Of a DNA stretch of 39,642 nucleotides, positions 1 to 5,838 are shown one piece after another. Numbering within the stretch: the first letter of the stretch is position 1; every line of letters starts with the position of its first letter. The stretch is from Flammeovirga sp. SJP92 (lineage in GTDB: Bacteria > Bacteroidota > Bacteroidia > Cytophagales > Flammeovirgaceae): the NCBI RefSeq assembly GCF_001583495.1, contig NZ_LQAQ01000087.1, forward strand, positions 1 to 39,642, written 5' to 3'. The notes under the pieces were generated by a model, which did not search any database, was not told where the DNA came from, and was given only the letters and a program-made list of their open reading frames with translations. The translations under genes were made by a program, and so were the position numbers.

Positions 1-256
1 TGACAAATCATAAAATGGGTTTTAATAAAAGGTTTGAAGCTGAATCTCTCAAAAAAAGATAATTATCTTTTCCACTTAGACAGTCCGAACTACTGGGGTA
101 ACTATACAGAAACTAGAATTTGGAGATAATTATGAATTTTATTTTATGACTCCTGATAAAATGATTGTTGATGGTTTTTCAAATACTTATGAATTGAAGT
201 ATAGATATACTTTTGATGTAAATAATAATAAGTTGATAAAAACAGAACAATTTTAG
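1..256 (+). pseudogene. 3' remnant of a decayed gene, two frameshifts
   Basis: No intact frame runs through this stretch, but three consecutive frames each give protein-like sequence. Bases 3-56 read like HKMGFNKRFEAESL, about 55-115 read KDNYLFHLDSPNYWGNY, and 119-256 read LEFGDNYEFYFMTPDK and end in KTEQF before a TAG at 254-256. Joining them needs two apparent one-base insertions, one in the A7 run at 51-57 and one near 112-120. The family is not recognised; the alternating aromatic pattern suggests a beta-rich domain. The upstream part lies outside the window. It ends two bases before the next gene, so it may be an eroded member of the same operon. That the frames belong together is inferred from reading sense only. 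Confidence 0.5.
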
Positions 257-258
257 AT

Positions 259-1344
259 ATGCCTCAATTAAAAACAAAAACTAAATTAAATACCAATCCT
301 TCGGATGAAGTTAATCTTAACAATGTCAATAATACCTTAAAAAAACTCATTTCTGAAATAGAAAATGGAAGCTTAGGTGTAGTGGAAGAGTTTCAGAAAT
401 TAGAAAAAATAAAGGAAGAATTAAATTCTACACTTGAGACAGTAAATAATTATCAGAAAACACATAGGGAATTAATAATATCGAAAGTAGAGGATTTTCT
501 TAAAAAGAATAATTTAGAAACTTGGTTCTACAAATTAGTTTGTAATAATTACTTATTTCAAGAAAATCTAGAACTATTATTTCAGGTAATAAGAATTGAG
601 AATTTGATTGAAGAAATTGATTTGTTGATAAAATTAAATTCTGCTGTTAGCTATCAAACTAGTCGATTCCATAAATTTAATTACTCATATAATAATAGTA
701 CAAAGAGTTTACAAATACATAATAGTGAATTCCCATTAAATAATATATCACTTATTTCTAAACATTCATACTTTATAAATTGCAATATTAATGTGACTTG
801 TTCATATAGTAATCAGTTATATCACAGAACGGACTTATATTCAATTTTTAAGAATAAGGAATTGAAAGGTGTGAATATTAGAAATATTCCTTCCAATTTG
901 GCTCCATATAATATTCATGTATTAGAACAGCATAAAGAACTTATTACTGATCAATATTTTTGGGTTAATATTGTACAAAATCAATTTATGAATTGGTCTA
1001 ATGATTTTGCTAATTACTTATATAACAATTTGCCAGAAAATATAAAAACAATTTATCCTGGATGGACATTAGAGTTTTTTATTAATCAAAGTGAAATATT
1101 TTCATCATTAGATATTAATCCATATAAGAATATTGAAAACGTCAATTTTCAAGAATTAACCCTTAACGATTGGAGTAATTTAAGTCAAAATTATGGGGTG
1201 AAATTCTCTTTGGAATTGATTGAAAAATATAAATATCAATGGAATCTAGATTATTTAGCAAACAATCCCTCTGTATGGTATACAGCATTTCAACCAATTT
1301 TGAATGATGAAATGATCTTAAGACTAATTAAACTTTTATTCTAA
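259..1344 (+). CDS. Hypothetical protein, paralogue 1 of a three-gene family
   Basis: Family not recognised. The 361-residue protein is very rich in Asn, Lys, Ile and Leu, with no signal peptide or membrane segment. It opens with MPQLKTKTK, followed by a polar linker and a helical, probably coiled-coil segment (about residues 25-85) that carries the LEKIKEEL pattern shared with the next two genes. The last 70 residues hold the family's C-terminal block: DWSNLSQN, then LIEKYKYQWNLDYLANNPS, then LNDEMILRLIKLL. It overlaps the next gene by one base (TAATG), so translation is probably coupled. A TACTTTTG -7-like box lies at 208-215 inside the upstream remnant, without a convincing -33 partner. 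A soluble partner of the downstream helicase is inferred from operon structure only. Confidence 0.85.
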   Translation: MPQLKTKTKLNTNPSDEVNLNNVNNTLKKLISEIENGSLGVVEEFQKLEKIKEELNSTLETVNNYQKTHRELIISKVEDFLKKNNLETWFYKLVCNNYLFQENLELLFQVIRIENLIEEIDLLIKLNSAVSYQTSRFHKFNYSYNNSTKSLQIHNSEFPLNNISLISKHSYFINCNINVTCSYSNQLYHRTDLYSIFKNKELKGVNIRNIPSNLAPYNIHVLEQHKELITDQYFWVNIVQNQFMNWSNDFANYLYNNLPENIKTIYPGWTLEFFINQSEIFSSLDINPYKNIENVNFQELTLNDWSNLSQNYGVKFSLELIEKYKYQWNLDYLANNPSVWYTAFQPILNDEMILRLIKLLF

Positions 1345-2246
1345 TGCCTTCATTAAAAACTTCAACGAAACGTACAAAGCCTTCAACAGTAAATAAACCA
1401 GATTCAGTATTAAATCTTAATTCAATTATAGATGATATAAATAGAGATTTATCTGAATCCAAAGGAGATTTACTTGCTGAATTTCATAATATTGAAAAGG
1501 CTCAAGATAAACTATTTTCATTTATCTCTAAATTAGATGGATTTATCTTAGAATTAGATGAAATGAAAAAACCTCATGAGGCTCTAATTACTTATAAATT
1601 TAGGGAACTGTTTGAAAAGACTGACTTGAATTTTTCTTCTCTTTTAAAAAAGTTTTATCAAACTGATCTCTTGTTTATTAATAGGTATTTAAGGAAGAAT
1701 AAAAACTCTATTTCTAGAATTAATGAAATAGATATTCTATTATATAGACATTATCATTTCCAAGATCCATTGAAACTTGAGAAAACATTCAACTTTGAAG
1801 ATGATACCATTGATGAATTCTTTTTTTCTTTGGAAGAATTAAAACAATGTAACATAGAAAAATTATATTTTAATGAGATATTTAAAAATCCTTTTTTAAA
1901 GTGGGATAAAGATTTGATAGACTATCTCCTTGAAAATACACCAGATAAAAATAGGAAAGAAAATTTCGAAGATTTTCTTATTGAAAAAGCAACAAATTAT
2001 AAGTCATTAGATAGTTACTTATTTAATGAGTACTCATTTTTAGAAATTAATAAAAATAAAGATGAAATTAATTGGGATCTTTTAAGTGCTAATATCTCAA
2101 TTCCTTTTACTATTGAACTTTTAATAGAGTTTAAAGAATATTGGAATTATGATATTTTACATGAAAATACTCATCTATGGATGACAATTTTTGAAAATAA
2201 TATCAATGATAAAATAGTTACAGACTTAATTAAACTTTTAGACTAA
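1344..2246 (+). CDS. Hypothetical protein, paralogue 2 of a three-gene family
   Basis: Soluble 300-residue protein of the same unrecognised family as its neighbours. The N-terminus is MPSLKTSTKRTKPST, then a polar linker, then a helical region near residues 40-95 with GDLLAEFHNIEKAQDKL and a conserved KPHEALITYKF. The C-terminal half carries INWDLLSANISIPFTIELL, KEYWNYDILHENTHLW and NDKIVTDLIKLL, which align position by position with the other two copies. The middle is shorter than in paralogues 1 and 3, so the variable centre sits between two conserved ends. The start ATG overlaps the previous stop by one base, and the next ATG directly follows its own TAA. Function unknown. Confidence 0.85.
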   Translation: MPSLKTSTKRTKPSTVNKPDSVLNLNSIIDDINRDLSESKGDLLAEFHNIEKAQDKLFSFISKLDGFILELDEMKKPHEALITYKFRELFEKTDLNFSSLLKKFYQTDLLFINRYLRKNKNSISRINEIDILLYRHYHFQDPLKLEKTFNFEDDTIDEFFFSLEELKQCNIEKLYFNEIFKNPFLKWDKDLIDYLLENTPDKNRKENFEDFLIEKATNYKSLDSYLFNEYSFLEINKNKDEINWDLLSANISIPFTIELLIEFKEYWNYDILHENTHLWMTIFENNINDKIVTDLIKLLD

Positions 2247-3281
2247 ATGCCATCAATCAAATCAAATAATACATCTACAAGTAATGTAAAAAGAAGTACC
2301 TCAAATAATTCTAATATCAATTTTAATATTGAGGGAATGGACAATTTTTTCAATAATTTCCAAAATGATATTAATACTTCTGGTGGAGATATCATTTCAC
2401 AATTTCAAACTCTCGAAAAAGCTACTCATGATCTTGAAAAAATGAAGAAACAAGTTCAAGAAATGAAATGGCAACATGAAGCATTTATTGTTCAGAAATT
2501 GAGGAAAGAGTTTGTTGAAAATAAATCTGTTTTCTTTAAAAAACTTATTTCTTTTGCTTATCCTTTAAGTAAAGAACTATACTTGAAACACAAAGATATT
2601 TTGGTTGATAGTCTTATTCAGAAAAATGTACATACATATACTTTTAAAGGGAGACCAGATTATTATGATAATGATAAATATTATTATTATCCGAAATTTG
2701 ATTTAGACTTATCAAAAATGGTTTATTATGAGGATATTGGAAAAAATGAAAATATGTTTTTCTCAGATGAATTATTAACATTATTGTCAACAAAAGAGAT
2801 CTTATTTTCTTATTTGTCAAAAAATAATTCAATAGAATGGAGTTTTGATAGAATTGAACAGTTTAAAGATAGAATAAACTTTAAAAATTTATTACAAAAT
2901 AAAAGTATAGACTGGTCAGAGGACTCAGCTAACATGCTATACGAAAGATTTTATACAGATAAGGAAATAAATGATAAAAAAGGTATTGAACTAAAAGAAT
3001 ATATTTTAGAAACAGCAAAATCAAATAGAATATCATCACTGTACAAATATGGTGAATATTCTGACAAAATTTTAGATGATAATTTAGGTACAATAAACTG
3101 GTCAGATTTATCAAGAAATAAATATTTACCTTTTACTCTTCAATATTTGATCAGATATAAAGACTTCTGGAAATATGATAAACTAGTTTACAACAGAGGT
3201 TTGTACGAAAAAGTATTCGAACCTATATTAAATGACAATATAGTCGATGATTTATTGACACTTTGCTGTTACAAAAAATAA
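2247..3281 (+). CDS. Hypothetical protein, paralogue 3 of a three-gene family
   Basis: Third member of the family, 344 residues, no signal peptide or membrane helix. It begins MPSIKSNNTSTSNVKRSTS; a Ser/Asn/Thr-rich linker of about 30 residues precedes the helical block (GDIISQFQTLEKATHDLEKM, then WQHEAFIVQKLRKEF). It shows the repeat structure best: NNSIEWSFDRIEQFKDRI and NKSIDWSEDSANMLYERF come before the terminal unit TINWSDLSRNKYLPFTLQYL, with YKDFWKYDKLVYN and LNDNIVDDLL at the end. The start is fixed by direct abutment to the previous TAA. The helicase gene begins three bases after this stop. Function unknown; these repeats could be a protein-interaction scaffold (inference). Confidence 0.85.
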   Translation: MPSIKSNNTSTSNVKRSTSNNSNINFNIEGMDNFFNNFQNDINTSGGDIISQFQTLEKATHDLEKMKKQVQEMKWQHEAFIVQKLRKEFVENKSVFFKKLISFAYPLSKELYLKHKDILVDSLIQKNVHTYTFKGRPDYYDNDKYYYYPKFDLDLSKMVYYEDIGKNENMFFSDELLTLLSTKEILFSYLSKNNSIEWSFDRIEQFKDRINFKNLLQNKSIDWSEDSANMLYERFYTDKEINDKKGIELKEYILETAKSNRISSLYKYGEYSDKILDDNLGTINWSDLSRNKYLPFTLQYLIRYKDFWKYDKLVYNRGLYEKVFEPILNDNIVDDLLTLCCYKK

Positions 3282-3284
3282 CCA

Positions 3285-4994
3285 ATGCCAAAGTTACCAT
3301 CAAAGCAAAATAATCTAACTCAGCTAAGAAAAGAGCATATAAAATTTTATGAGAGAGAAATAGCTATTCAAATTCAAGAATTTAAAAATATTGTTGATCG
3401 AAAAGCTATTTCTTTACTTGAAGAAGATGAAGTATTTATTACATCGTATTTTGGAGTTAATCAACAAGGGCATTGTATTTTAGAATTTTCTAAGAAGAGG
3501 GGTTTGCCAAGAATAGGTAGTCATTTATGTGCTTTTTTGGTTACAGATCATTATGCAAACTATCGAAATTGGGGACAGTCTTCTTATTTTGACTTGCACA
3601 AAGAAAAAATTGCAGAACAAGAGTTAAGTTGTGTTTGGCATGGATTATCATTAGATAAACAATATTATATAGCAGGTTTTAAAGGAATAGAAGAAGAGTT
3701 TTTATCAAAATTAAAAAAAGATGTTATCGTTTTATTAGGCCCAAGTTCACCTCCTTTAGATTACCTGAAAAGTTTAAAAGAAATTGTTGAAAAAGAAAAA
3801 ATAGAATCCAGTGCAGGAAGTATTTTGGAGCTAACTTATAGAGATGAAATTTTAAGATTACCGTCTTTTATCAAGCAAAATTCTAAAGCTGATTTTATTA
3901 TTGATCAATTGGAGTTAAATGATACTTTTCTACTACAAGGCCCACCTGGTACTGGCAAAACCTATCTAACTGGTGAGATATGCTCAAAATTGGTAGAGAG
4001 AGGTGCGTCTGTATTAATACTTTCACCAACAAATAGGGCATTATTAGAAGTTGCTTCAAAAGAATCATTAGGAGACACCTTAGGTAAAGGAAAAATTTAC
4101 AAGTTAAACTTGAGCTTAGATGAAGAAAGAAGTGTTCCAAAACTTAATAAAATAAAGGAATTATCATCTATTAAAGGAGGTGTTGTTTTATCTACTTTCT
4201 ATTTGGGGAGCATTACGTCTGTCGATTATATAAATAGTTGTAATCATTTTGATTATGTTATTATAGATGAAGCAAGTCAAGGTTTTTTAGCCACATTTTC
4301 AATGGCAAAATTATTAGGACATAAACAACTTTGGATAGGAGATGTAAATCAATTACCTCCTATAGTTCTACAATCTCTTAAGAATAAAGAAAAAAATAGA
4401 ATGGGACATGGTTTAAAATCTATACTATCTGAAGGATCATATCCTTACTATTCTTTAAAGGAAACCTATAGATTGGGTCCTCGTAGTGCTTTTCAAACTG
4501 GGGTGTTTTATAATGATCAACTCAAATCCTCACATAGAGATTTTAATAATCAAGATGATCTAGATAATAATATCTTTCATAAAAAAGGTGGTACGACTTT
4601 GCATTTGATGAATTTTAACTCATTTACCAAAATACCTATAGTAGGTATTCAAGAGGTAGATAGATTGTTATATCAATTACCCAAAGAAGCAAAAGTAGCA
4701 GTATTGACATTTTTCGTTTCCACAGCAAAAGAGTTGCAAAAAACGTTAACACATCACTCTGTTGGGTTTGGTTCAAATTTAATAATTGAAACTGTTGCTA
4801 GAATTCAAGGTCTTTCTGTAGACTATGTTTTATACCTGATTCCTAATACTGGTTATGTAAGGTCATTGAACCGGGAATTATTTAATGTGGCCACAAGTAG
4901 AGCAAAAAAGAATACGGTTATTATTGCCGATAAATCAATATTGAATAGTAGACATACAGATTGTAGTGTAGTAGAGTACCTGCAAAGAATATAA
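3285..4994 (+). CDS. UPF1/Dna2-like superfamily 1 helicase
   Basis: The 569-residue protein has the full set of SF1 helicase motifs: Walker A GPPGTGKT at residues 219-226, motif Ia near ILSPTNRALLE, motif II as DEASQ (328-332), motif III GDVNQLPP, motif IV area ETYRLG, motif V ARIQGLSVDYVLY and motif VI FNVATSRAKK. The DEAxQ form and overall layout fit the SF1B UPF1/Dna2 group, whose members unwind RNA or DNA using ATP. The first 190 residues form a domain I do not recognise; no nuclease motif is visible. It begins MPKLPSKQ, echoing the starts of the three upstream genes, and lies three bases after the last of them, so it is probably translated from the same message. A role in defence or nucleic-acid repair is inferred from context. 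Confidence 0.9.
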   Translation: MPKLPSKQNNLTQLRKEHIKFYEREIAIQIQEFKNIVDRKAISLLEEDEVFITSYFGVNQQGHCILEFSKKRGLPRIGSHLCAFLVTDHYANYRNWGQSSYFDLHKEKIAEQELSCVWHGLSLDKQYYIAGFKGIEEEFLSKLKKDVIVLLGPSSPPLDYLKSLKEIVEKEKIESSAGSILELTYRDEILRLPSFIKQNSKADFIIDQLELNDTFLLQGPPGTGKTYLTGEICSKLVERGASVLILSPTNRALLEVASKESLGDTLGKGKIYKLNLSLDEERSVPKLNKIKELSSIKGGVVLSTFYLGSITSVDYINSCNHFDYVIIDEASQGFLATFSMAKLLGHKQLWIGDVNQLPPIVLQSLKNKEKNRMGHGLKSILSEGSYPYYSLKETYRLGPRSAFQTGVFYNDQLKSSHRDFNNQDDLDNNIFHKKGGTTLHLMNFNSFTKIPIVGIQEVDRLLYQLPKEAKVAVLTFFVSTAKELQKTLTHHSVGFGSNLIIETVARIQGLSVDYVLYLIPNTGYVRSLNRELFNVATSRAKKNTVIIADKSILNSRHTDCSVVEYLQRI

Positions 4995-5391
4995 CTATTT
5001 GAATATTTTAAGCTCAAGTCTAGCTTCGTTTCCTTACTACATCCGTAAATAACTGGTAAAATACACTTTTTACTTGTGTTGTCCCCTTATTGCTTCTGTT
5101 ATGACAACGTACTTACACCAGTGAAACAAGCTAAAATCGAAGGTTCTACTTTCGTTTAAATTGTACTTTTCAAATGCAATTTCAATGGATAATTTAAAGT
5201 GTTGGTTCCTAAATTTGAATATAAATAGATGAGATCTGATGCTTTTGAGTTTAATCTTACTTTACAAGAAAGATTCAACCGATAAGAATAAGATGATTTG
5301 AAGTATACTTTAAAATACAATTGAAGTATCAGATAGGAAAGGTAGTGAAGCTGGTCAAATAAATGTTACCCCCAATATTATCCCTTAAAAA
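4995..5391. other. Gene-free gap between helicase operon and ssrA
   Basis: I see no convincing coding frame and no terminator with a T-run just after the helicase stop. The one notable point is a 15-bp string, GAAGGTTCTACTTTC (5139-5153), also found at 13295-13309 inside the noncoding repeat next to the susC gene. The surrounding sequence does not align well, so this may be a very eroded copy or chance. Confidence 0.5.
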
Positions 5392-5430
5392 CAAAAAAAC
5401 CGCCCTTACATTACTGTAAACGCGGTTTCT
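5392..5430 (-). terminator. Intrinsic terminator of ssrA
   Basis: Read on the minus strand, AAACCGC pairs with GCGGTTT and the inner arms TTTACA and TGTAAG add further pairs around a GTAA loop. Seven T residues follow (complement of A 5393-5399). It starts three bases beyond the mature tmRNA end, so it fits as the transcript end. Confidence 0.85.
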
Positions 5431-5432
5431 AG

Positions 5433-5838
5433 TGGAGTCGGAGGGAGTCGAACCCTCGTCCAGAGAAGGACTCCGTCAAGCCTTCTACATGCTTAGTTTC
5501 TCTTAAATTTTCGAGACAAGCCCAGCCGGAAACAACCTAAACTTATCCTTATCTGCTTAAAGCTTCATCTTCAACCCACAGCAGGTATCCGACTAGATCA
5601 ATGATTACGGCACCGCCGATTCTTCGCCCAAAGATCAAGGCAAAGGACGATGTAGCTCGGGAACGCAAGTGCGTTCAACCATTTAAGCCCAGATGTCTAC
5701 AACCCTAAGGGAGACTAGGCAGCCATAGCAAACGAATTGTTGCCAACTAGATTTTGGAATTATCTTTCAAGGCTCTCATCCCATGAGCCTGCATGCTTAT
5801 ACTTGCAAAATCTCAGCCTGTCAAAACCAGTCGACCCC
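5433..5838 (-). ncRNA. ssrA: tmRNA (transfer-messenger RNA)
   Basis: The minus strand begins GGGGTCGACTGGTTTTGACA and ends with a T-arm GGTTCGACTCC, followed by CGACTCC that closes a seven-pair acceptor stem with the 5' end, then discriminator A at 5433. The tag frame follows TAGTT: codons at 5744-5715 read GNNSFAMAA then TAG, so the peptide added to stalled proteins would be AGNNSFAMAA, including the charged Ala. With SmpB it rescues stalled ribosomes and marks products for proteolysis. The 3' CCA is not encoded (the next bases are CTA), so it must be added by the CCA enzyme. The length of about 406 nt is normal for Bacteroidota. Confidence 0.97.

Follow-up and report, generated by a model that had tools for sequence, protein, structure and literature searches.

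UPF1-like helicases include housekeeping enzymes. Among the described systems with which the locus reported here was compared, Mokosh is defined by the full-length architecture of MkoA or by MkoA with MkoB, DarTG by DarT with a macrodomain, and Tiamat by the presence of a gene for a TmtA-type GHKL ATPase. A 2023 survey places Tiamat among systems of unknown mechanism (PMC10482375). In the window, by which we mean the whole 39,642-nucleotide stretch analysed, an operon of four genes lies beside ssrA (Table 1). By sequence comparison, its helicase, P0004, belongs to a distinct prokaryotic subfamily tied to TmtA-type loci, and three small repeat proteins stand in the place of TmtA beside it. The operon is probably a defence module.

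Table 1. Features of the operon and its surroundings, in window coordinates
Feature	Position	Strand	Basis
End (106 bp) of a ~1.39-kb multicopy insertion sequence; IS3-type by eye, OrfA of 94 aa and DDE OrfB	1–106		
3′ gene scrap, apparently cut by the insertion sequence; stop 2 bases 5′ of the first operon ATG	107–256	+	Frame translations
Paralogue 1, P0001, 361 aa; diverged WxxLSxN-repeat family	259–1344	+	ORF, alignment, BLASTP, hhalign
Paralogue 2, P0002, 300 aa	1344–2246	+	ORF, alignment, BLASTP
Paralogue 3, P0003, 344 aa; clearest N-cap and C-cap (by eye against relatives)	2247–3281	+	
P0004, 569 aa; UPF1/IGHMBP2-like SF1 helicase of the Tiamat-associated subfamily, with intact motifs	3285–4994	+	
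N-terminus of P0004, ~218 residues up to the P-loop; long helix followed by strands and a further helix in a low-confidence model	3285–3938	+	
Conserved island-edge sequence from operon to ssrA; common to 3 of 8 congeneric genomes	5028–5430		
tmRNA gene ssrA; 3′ end faces the operon	5432–5838	−	

The four genes contain no internal stops and meet at junctions of −1, 0 and +3 bases, which confirms the tight packing reported in the preliminary description; the AT-richness noted there was also borne out, the GC content of the operon genes being 24–31% against 34% for the window. Because 200 single-base shuffles of positions 259–4994 gave no ORF longer than 132 residues, the four ORFs of 300–569 residues are not due to chance. 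All four proteins, the unrelated helicase included, begin with MPx[L/I]. This start occurred in none of 13 relatives, and an MP start in none of 72 other ATG-start ORFs of at least 150 residues from the window and eight genus loci, with starts assigned mechanically. The joint start, absent from those 72 ORFs, hints that the four genes evolved as a set. Searches with Pfam found no nuclease or toxin domain in the four proteins, and among the sets searched the exact four-gene combination was seen in this genome only.

P0004 matches the Pfam models AAA_11 and AAA_12 and retains its motifs (GPPGTGKT at 219, DEASQ at 328, GDVNQLPP at 352, RIQGL at 506 and VATSRA at 535), in agreement with its first description as a UPF1/Dna2-like SF1 helicase; the best solved relatives in the PDB are SMUBP-2 and UPF1. 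In alignments, it matches the Tiamat-associated subfamily over its full length, N-terminal region included, with 28–42% identity to the 13 other aligned members. The N-terminus had been described as an unassigned domain of 190 residues. However, the region occupies what we take to be the position of the UPF1/IGHMBP2-like stalk/1B region, and an IGHMBP2-like profile alignment is colinear through it (P-loop at 219 versus 208), with low confidence there. It was modelled as helix-strands-helix with pLDDT mostly below 50, and the best PDB stretches stop short of it. Going by the colinear alignment, which is not decisive, the region is probably not a new domain and looks ordinary.

Of 390 genomes from the order, at least 13, the window's own included, encode a helicase of this subfamily, and a genome-contig scan (at least 590 stretches) added at least three full-length copies among 80 loci retained from at least 182 relatives; the genome searches scored the best 3–5 candidates per genome, so that these tallies are lower bounds. 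Upstream of the helicase lies a gene for a TmtA-type giant ATPase in 15 of the 16 copies listed outside the window, the 16th being cut by a contig end, and PADLOC recognised all 15 as TmtA at an E value of 4e-77 or better. The gaps between the two genes range from −65 to +35 bases; in locus L051, the TmtA frame is split, with a 388-residue piece between. An HsdR-like gene (by eye) accompanies two of these loci and pAgo one. The window operon holds no TmtA-type ORF, its contig ending 258 bases upstream, and a single query of its own genome, run without a positive control, gave no TmtA match at E ≤ 1e-5. The operon lacks the gene that defines Tiamat. No full-length helicase relative was found in the other eight genus genomes, and helicase queries of plasmids and phages returned nothing at E ≤ 1e-15 and 1e-8.

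The three genes upstream of the helicase had been described as one family with conserved ends and a variable middle. Pairwise BLASTP (E = 8e-16 for P0001/P0002, 5e-13 for P0001/P0003 and 3e-22 for P0002/P0003) and the alignment support this. They belong, in diverged form, to a family of repeat proteins built from a WxxLSxN unit of 25 residues between an N-cap and a C-cap; membership follows from a C-terminal profile match and the C-cap, while the middle has diverged. Only the C-terminal part aligns well with canonical repeats (hhalign probability 96%, E = 2e-9, 142 columns), and just 2–3 matches to the WxxLSxN motif occur in each protein. No Pfam model fits the repeat, and the family is apparently unnamed. 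Against Pfam, NCBIfam, PHROGs and PADLOC, the paralogues gave nothing convincing (best PADLOC 0.014, best PHROG 0.021). Queries with them found no match in viral contigs and phages and one weak Salinibacter match in plasmids. Scans of viral contigs with the paralogue, helicase and repeat alignments confirmed no relative, nor did a weak genome-contig scan with the paralogues, which used two peptide patterns only. The AlphaFold models made for the operon proteins reached mean pLDDT values of just 42 and 46, too low for a fold search. Separately, the possibility that the paralogues are TmtA fragments was rejected, since their profile had no match at E ≤ 10 in the ORFs of 11 loci.

In the preliminary description, recurrence of the family with the helicase in variable loci was to count in favour of a system, and homologues mostly without one against it. 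On the latter point the result is unfavourable: an SF1 helicase is fused or adjacent in 6 of 22 readable repeat loci, and 16 are without one. Recurrence with UPF1-like helicases is seen in a DarT-containing operon. The six helicase-linked loci represent four types, because three of them share one architecture, an MkoA-like helicase with a repeat-DarT protein (G684, G397 from the genus of the window, and a Hymenobacter plasmid). A macro-type gene lies near this operon in G684 and G397 (by eye); PADLOC did not recognise a DarT in the Hymenobacter repeat protein. In G339, a PIF1-like helicase is fused to WxxLSxN repeats in a protein of 830 residues, and in a Salinibacter plasmid a UvrD-type helicase and a PD-(D/E)XK gene lie upstream of the repeat gene. 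On a Prevotella plasmid, a gene related to helicases comes four genes later, and it was not scored as adjacent.

The 22 loci are those of the window, G339, G154, G397, G423, G495 (two), G490 (two), G509, G529, G547, G684, G720, G722, G759, G783 and G799, and of the Salinibacter, Acinetobacter, Hymenobacter and Prevotella plasmids. Two loci of G448 were counted as one with their near-identical G495 counterparts. Left out were G492, G526 and G512 (matches to other profile parts), G699 (a MeaB-like GTPase, false match) and G485 (a 63-residue frame at a contig end). Phage loci stand outside the count; LPJP1, the only one viewed, has no helicase annotated in its stretch. Absence of a neighbouring helicase was called by the helicase A5 profile with a P-loop pattern, by the P-loop pattern alone, by annotation or, for G154, by eye over ~700 upstream bases only. 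Profile searches with the repeat family likewise scored the best 3–5 candidates per genome and give lower bounds. The labels TIR, FRG, WYL, PLD, GIY-YIG, macro, HsdR, McrC and integrase were assigned by eye.

The neighbours had been described as a gene remnant and ssrA. The tmRNA gene was confirmed, whereas the remnant consists of two things, the end of an insertion sequence, inside which the contig starts, and a gene scrap. The insertion sequence occupies 12 places in the genome including that of the window; 8 of the 11 others end at query base 106, and three full copies were read. Its insertion could have deleted a gene or the operon promoter. On the other side, the ~400-bp edge lies beside ssrA in G399 (94.6%) and G401 (87.6%) and at a second copy of the ssrA tail in G397 (84.5%); it was not found in such a position in G395, G396, G398, G400 or G402. 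The edge borders other defence-type cargo in three congeners, and the ssrA-side slot holds defence-type cargo in five of the eight other genus genomes, one of the five by eye. The helicase and repeat-DarT operon of G397 occupies this same slot.

The tie of the helicase subfamily to TmtA, the links between repeats and SF1 helicases, including UPF1-like ones, and the ssrA-side slot together make defence cargo likely. The defence reading of the preliminary description thus holds in part, as the exact set was seen once and the usual partner of the helicase is TmtA. We give an even chance to the fuller reading, in which the operon forms the defence cargo of an island slot at ssrA and its helicase works with the three diverged repeat proteins in the place of TmtA. 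The locus could instead be an incomplete or decaying island, in which a helicase stranded from a Tiamat-type module stands beside unrelated repeat genes without joint action. The insertion sequence and scrap directly upstream point that way, as does TmtA, kept by nearly all listed relatives and not found by the single query here; but the four intact, AT-rich, tightly joined ORFs and their shared start, foreign to the 13 relatives, make such decay somewhat unlikely.

The operon might also serve replication, repair or counter-defence for a mobile element integrated at ssrA rather than defend the host. Integrases (by eye) and att-like copies of the ssrA tail at the slot in two congeners fit such a helper, and matches to canonical repeat proteins occur in the jumbo phages LPJP1, G and BpSp and in four plasmids. 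We consider it improbable, however, since what PADLOC recognises in this slot in G399, G402 and G395 is defence-type cargo and the stretch from operon to ssrA contains no integrase, though on its other flank the operon runs into the contig end. A host operon for RNA or DNA metabolism outside conflict, in which the repeats would provide a general protein scaffold, appears highly improbable: several helicase-free repeat loci sit amid ordinary-looking genes and some UPF1-like helicases are housekeeping enzymes, but the other genus genomes have no full-length helicase relative, the helicase of the relatives tracks TmtA and the locus differs among congeners.

If the operon is a defence module, then in the most likely mechanism the shared N-terminal coiled-coil and C-cap would dock the three repeat proteins on the helicase or on one another, and their differing middles would bind distinct targets made by the invader, whether proteins or nucleic acids. 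Target binding would recruit or switch on the helicase, which would then translocate on, strip or unwind invader DNA or RNA. More tentatively, and rather unlikely as a whole, the operon could be a multi-receptor helicase immune module, with one UPF1-like helicase and several diversified repeat receptors whose conserved ends dock and whose variable middles recognise different invaders. It would then be a form of a wider unnamed immunity, in which WxxLSxN repeats give specificity to SF1 helicases (UPF1-, PIF1- and UvrD-like) with or without a DarT warhead.

Compared with known proteins, P0004 shares SF1 motifs with UPF1 and IGHMBP2 (SMUBP-2) but is of a prokaryotic subfamily. Its helicase core matches MkoA of Mokosh at 7e-26, although the match covers residues 300–558 against a 1112-residue model, and no accompanying Mokosh domains were seen. 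Likewise, the four window proteins have no DarT or macro match in Pfam, DarT occurring in the operons of relatives. Tiamat-type loci, with their GHKL/sacsin-like ATPase TmtA, have the same helicase subfamily in the same position, directly downstream and tightly packed, whereas the window has three small repeat proteins instead of TmtA. P0004 also lacks the C-terminal PIN domain of at least two Tiamat-associated helicases, those of L030 (by Pfam) and L057 (by alignment). The natural replacement of TmtA beside this helicase would allow a direct test of the role of each half. In the helicase and repeat-DarT operons, a UPF1-like helicase adjoins the same repeat family, as in the window, but the helicase is of another subfamily (just 82–89 bits to the A5 profile of the window's subfamily) and the repeat protein has 1511–1714 residues and a C-terminal DarT-type domain. 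The G339 fusion also joins the family to an SF1 helicase but, unlike the window, one of PIF1 type in a single polypeptide. Taken all together, one apparently unnamed repeat family recurs with three kinds of SF1 helicase, and with a DarT-type domain in three loci, which suggests that bacterial immunity reuses these repeats as a recognition module.

The segment at 259-4994 holds four plus-strand ORFs of 361, 300, 344 and 569 aa with junctions of -1, 0 and +3 bases, and the longest ORF across 200 shuffles of this segment was at most 132 aa, which bears out the four tightly packed genes of the preliminary description. The first three proteins were likewise confirmed as one family, with 26-29% identity and pairwise BLASTP E values of 5e-13 to 3e-22. 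The fourth, P0004, is a UPF1-like SF1 helicase, as had been proposed: its motifs are intact and its closest solved structures are SMUBP-2 and UPF1. Because a profile alignment with IGHMBP2-like proteins runs from residue 16 onward, with the P-loops falling at 219 and 208, the N-terminal ~200 residues, earlier called an unassigned domain, are most likely the usual stalk/1B region. The predicted structure of the region (helix, strands, helix) is of low confidence, and the best PDB stretches do not extend over it. All four proteins, the helicase included, start with MPx[L/I]. The window and eight loci of the genus contain 76 ATG-start ORFs of at least 150 aa (starts assigned mechanically), of which only these four begin with MP, and the start was absent in 13 of 13 helicase relatives examined. 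The common start, a hint short of proof, may be a signal for docking or for processing, or may be left over from the way the operon was put together.

Based on sequence comparison, the three paralogues are members of an unnamed WxxLSxN repeat family. Canonical members are built of successive 25-residue units with WxWxxLSxN at their core, seen in the motif spacing, and have an N-cap and a C-cap in common (by eye); the paralogues retain the caps and a few repeats, together with an N-terminal tail and coiled-coil of their own. At E<=1e-3 the paralogue profile matched in at least 3 of 395 genomes of the phylum, and at E<=0.01 in at least 18 of 380 genomes of the order, the window's own included in each; a few of the weaker matches are to non-repeat proteins. 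No Pfam model fitted the repeats, and a canonical member that was searched against the PDB gave no match. A Sigma_1s Pfam match on one repeat protein looks spurious. Repeats are also encoded by four plasmids and three jumbo phages (LPJP1, BpSp and G), with WxxLSxN matches at 3-7 places per record in Listeria phage LPJP1 (L186) and the two Bacillus phages.

Homologues found mostly without the helicase had been named as evidence against a joint system, and this objection holds in part. An SF1 helicase is fused or immediately adjacent in 6 of the 22 readable repeat loci, window included, and 16 have none, a raw count from loci that were not sampled blind. In genomes G684 and G397 and a Hymenobacter plasmid, a UPF1-like helicase is followed by a 1511-1714 aa protein with WxxLSxN repeats and a C-terminal DarT-type domain. 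The DarT assignment is based on Pfam in G684, similarity in G397 and record annotation in the Hymenobacter protein, where PADLOC, a defence-gene profile set, did not detect DarT. A macro-type gene (by eye) comes after the repeat-DarT gene in G684 and G397, and the operon appears to be a so far undescribed defence system based on DarT. In addition, a PIF1-like helicase is fused to repeats in G339, and a UvrD-type helicase lies 157 bases upstream of the repeat gene on a Salinibacter plasmid. The link between repeats and helicases is real enough for notice, with four architectures, and far from universal. Such systems are rare: when the genera to which G339 and G684 belong were searched, 3 of 121 genomes had the repeats, and 1 of 48, G684 itself, had the repeat-DarT protein of G684. 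No repeat protein was found among the 80 loci kept from a genome-contig scan.

Features and their locations (L, loci and G, genomes compared)
Feature	Location	Remark
End of insertion sequence	window:1-106	
ssrA 3' flank	window:5028-5838, L200-L207	
MkoA-like UPF1 helicase + repeat-DarT operon	L177:7733-17812 (G397)	MkoA, Mokosh helicase
Same	L170:7560-16169 (G684)	
Same	L184:2898-11196 (Hymenobacter plasmid NZ_CP043645.1)	
PIF1-like helicase-repeat fusion	L031:9973-12465 (G339)	roughly 12 WxxLSxN repeats
Two or three related repeat proteins in tandem (by eye)	L178:8087-12691 (G490)	perhaps another multi-paralogue array
Repeat protein directly 3' of TIR-like gene (by eye)	L173:8134-11011 (G722)	possible other effector partner
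Repeat protein directly 3' of PLD-like gene (by eye)	L213:1195-4023 (G799)	possible other effector partner
TmtA-matching gene then dedicated SF1 helicase	L028, L030, L047-L049, L051-L057, L059-L061	15 loci
HsdR-like and nuclease-like genes (by eye), pAgo (PADLOC), TmtA, helicase-PIN protein in one row	L030:2-13012 (G194)	
ssrA slot, DruE-like, UvrD/GajB-like, TmtA genes	G399	
ssrA slot, DrmMI- and DpdE-matching genes	G402	
ssrA slot, type I restriction	G395	
ssrA slot, helicase + repeat-DarT system	G397	
ssrA slot, two leading genes same as G399	G401	by eye

Judging from its relatives, P0004 belongs to a defence-linked helicase subfamily. A full-length-relative profile, with three candidates scored per genome, found the subfamily in at least 13 of 390 order genomes (own included, E<=1e-45) and no full-length relative in the other eight genus genomes, where a separate search scoring nearly all candidates gave a best match of E 3e-9. 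At least three further full-length copies were among the 80 scan loci, and the two sources together gave 16 copies besides the window's, a lower bound. In 15 of these, the upstream gene matches the PADLOC model of TmtA, the giant GHKL ATPase of Tiamat, at E 4e-77 or better, with gaps of -65 to +35 bases to the helicase gene; at the sixteenth (L050), the upstream side is a contig-end fragment only. The TmtA frame of L051 is split, the 1076-aa piece being the one tested and a 388-aa piece lying between it and the helicase. Some helicases of the 15 loci carry a C-terminal PIN domain, and subfamily loci include HsdR-like genes at two (by eye) and a prokaryotic Argonaute at one. Tiamat may often be a two-gene module of TmtA and SF1 helicase in the searched group. 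In the window's genome, one congener TmtA query, run without a positive control, gave no match at E<=1e-5. A 2023 survey (PMC10482375) names Tiamat among systems of mechanism unknown.

The tmRNA 3' end points toward the operon. In G397 and G395, integrase-bearing elements (integrase by eye) lie at the ssrA 3' side, with att-like ssrA-tail copies of 25 and 21 bases, respectively, at their far side. When ~19.5 kb was read at this slot, defence-type cargo was present in five of the eight other genus genomes, and the slots of G396, G398 and G400 were ordinary-looking, judged by eye alone. Within the genus, the ssrA 3' flank seems to be a hotspot for integration and defence. The ~400 bases from helicase to ssrA match G399 (94.6%) and G401 (87.6%). 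The same edge in G397 (84.5%) lies at the second ssrA-tail copy, right beside the repeat-DarT/helicase system, so that two congeners hold two different repeat-protein and UPF1-like-helicase systems at one edge sequence; it was not found beside ssrA in the other five genus genomes. The insertion sequence at the window start, which matches at 11 further places in the genome, cut off whatever stood 5' of the operon, and the contig probably broke because of it.

Considering that the paralogues have conserved ends and divergent middles and that repeat-helicase pairing recurs, the repeat proteins may act as adaptors with different targets and the helicase would serve as their motor. The literature accessible to us, in which subscription journals were thinly covered and the repeat family had no name to query, held no description of this family or of a Tiamat-helicase pair. 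In Tiamat-linked helicase modules TmtA stands upstream of the helicase, whereas the window's operon has three repeat proteins instead. The best interpretation is that the operon represents a variant form of these modules, carried as defence cargo, in which the giant ATPase would have been replaced by three diverged repeat proteins.
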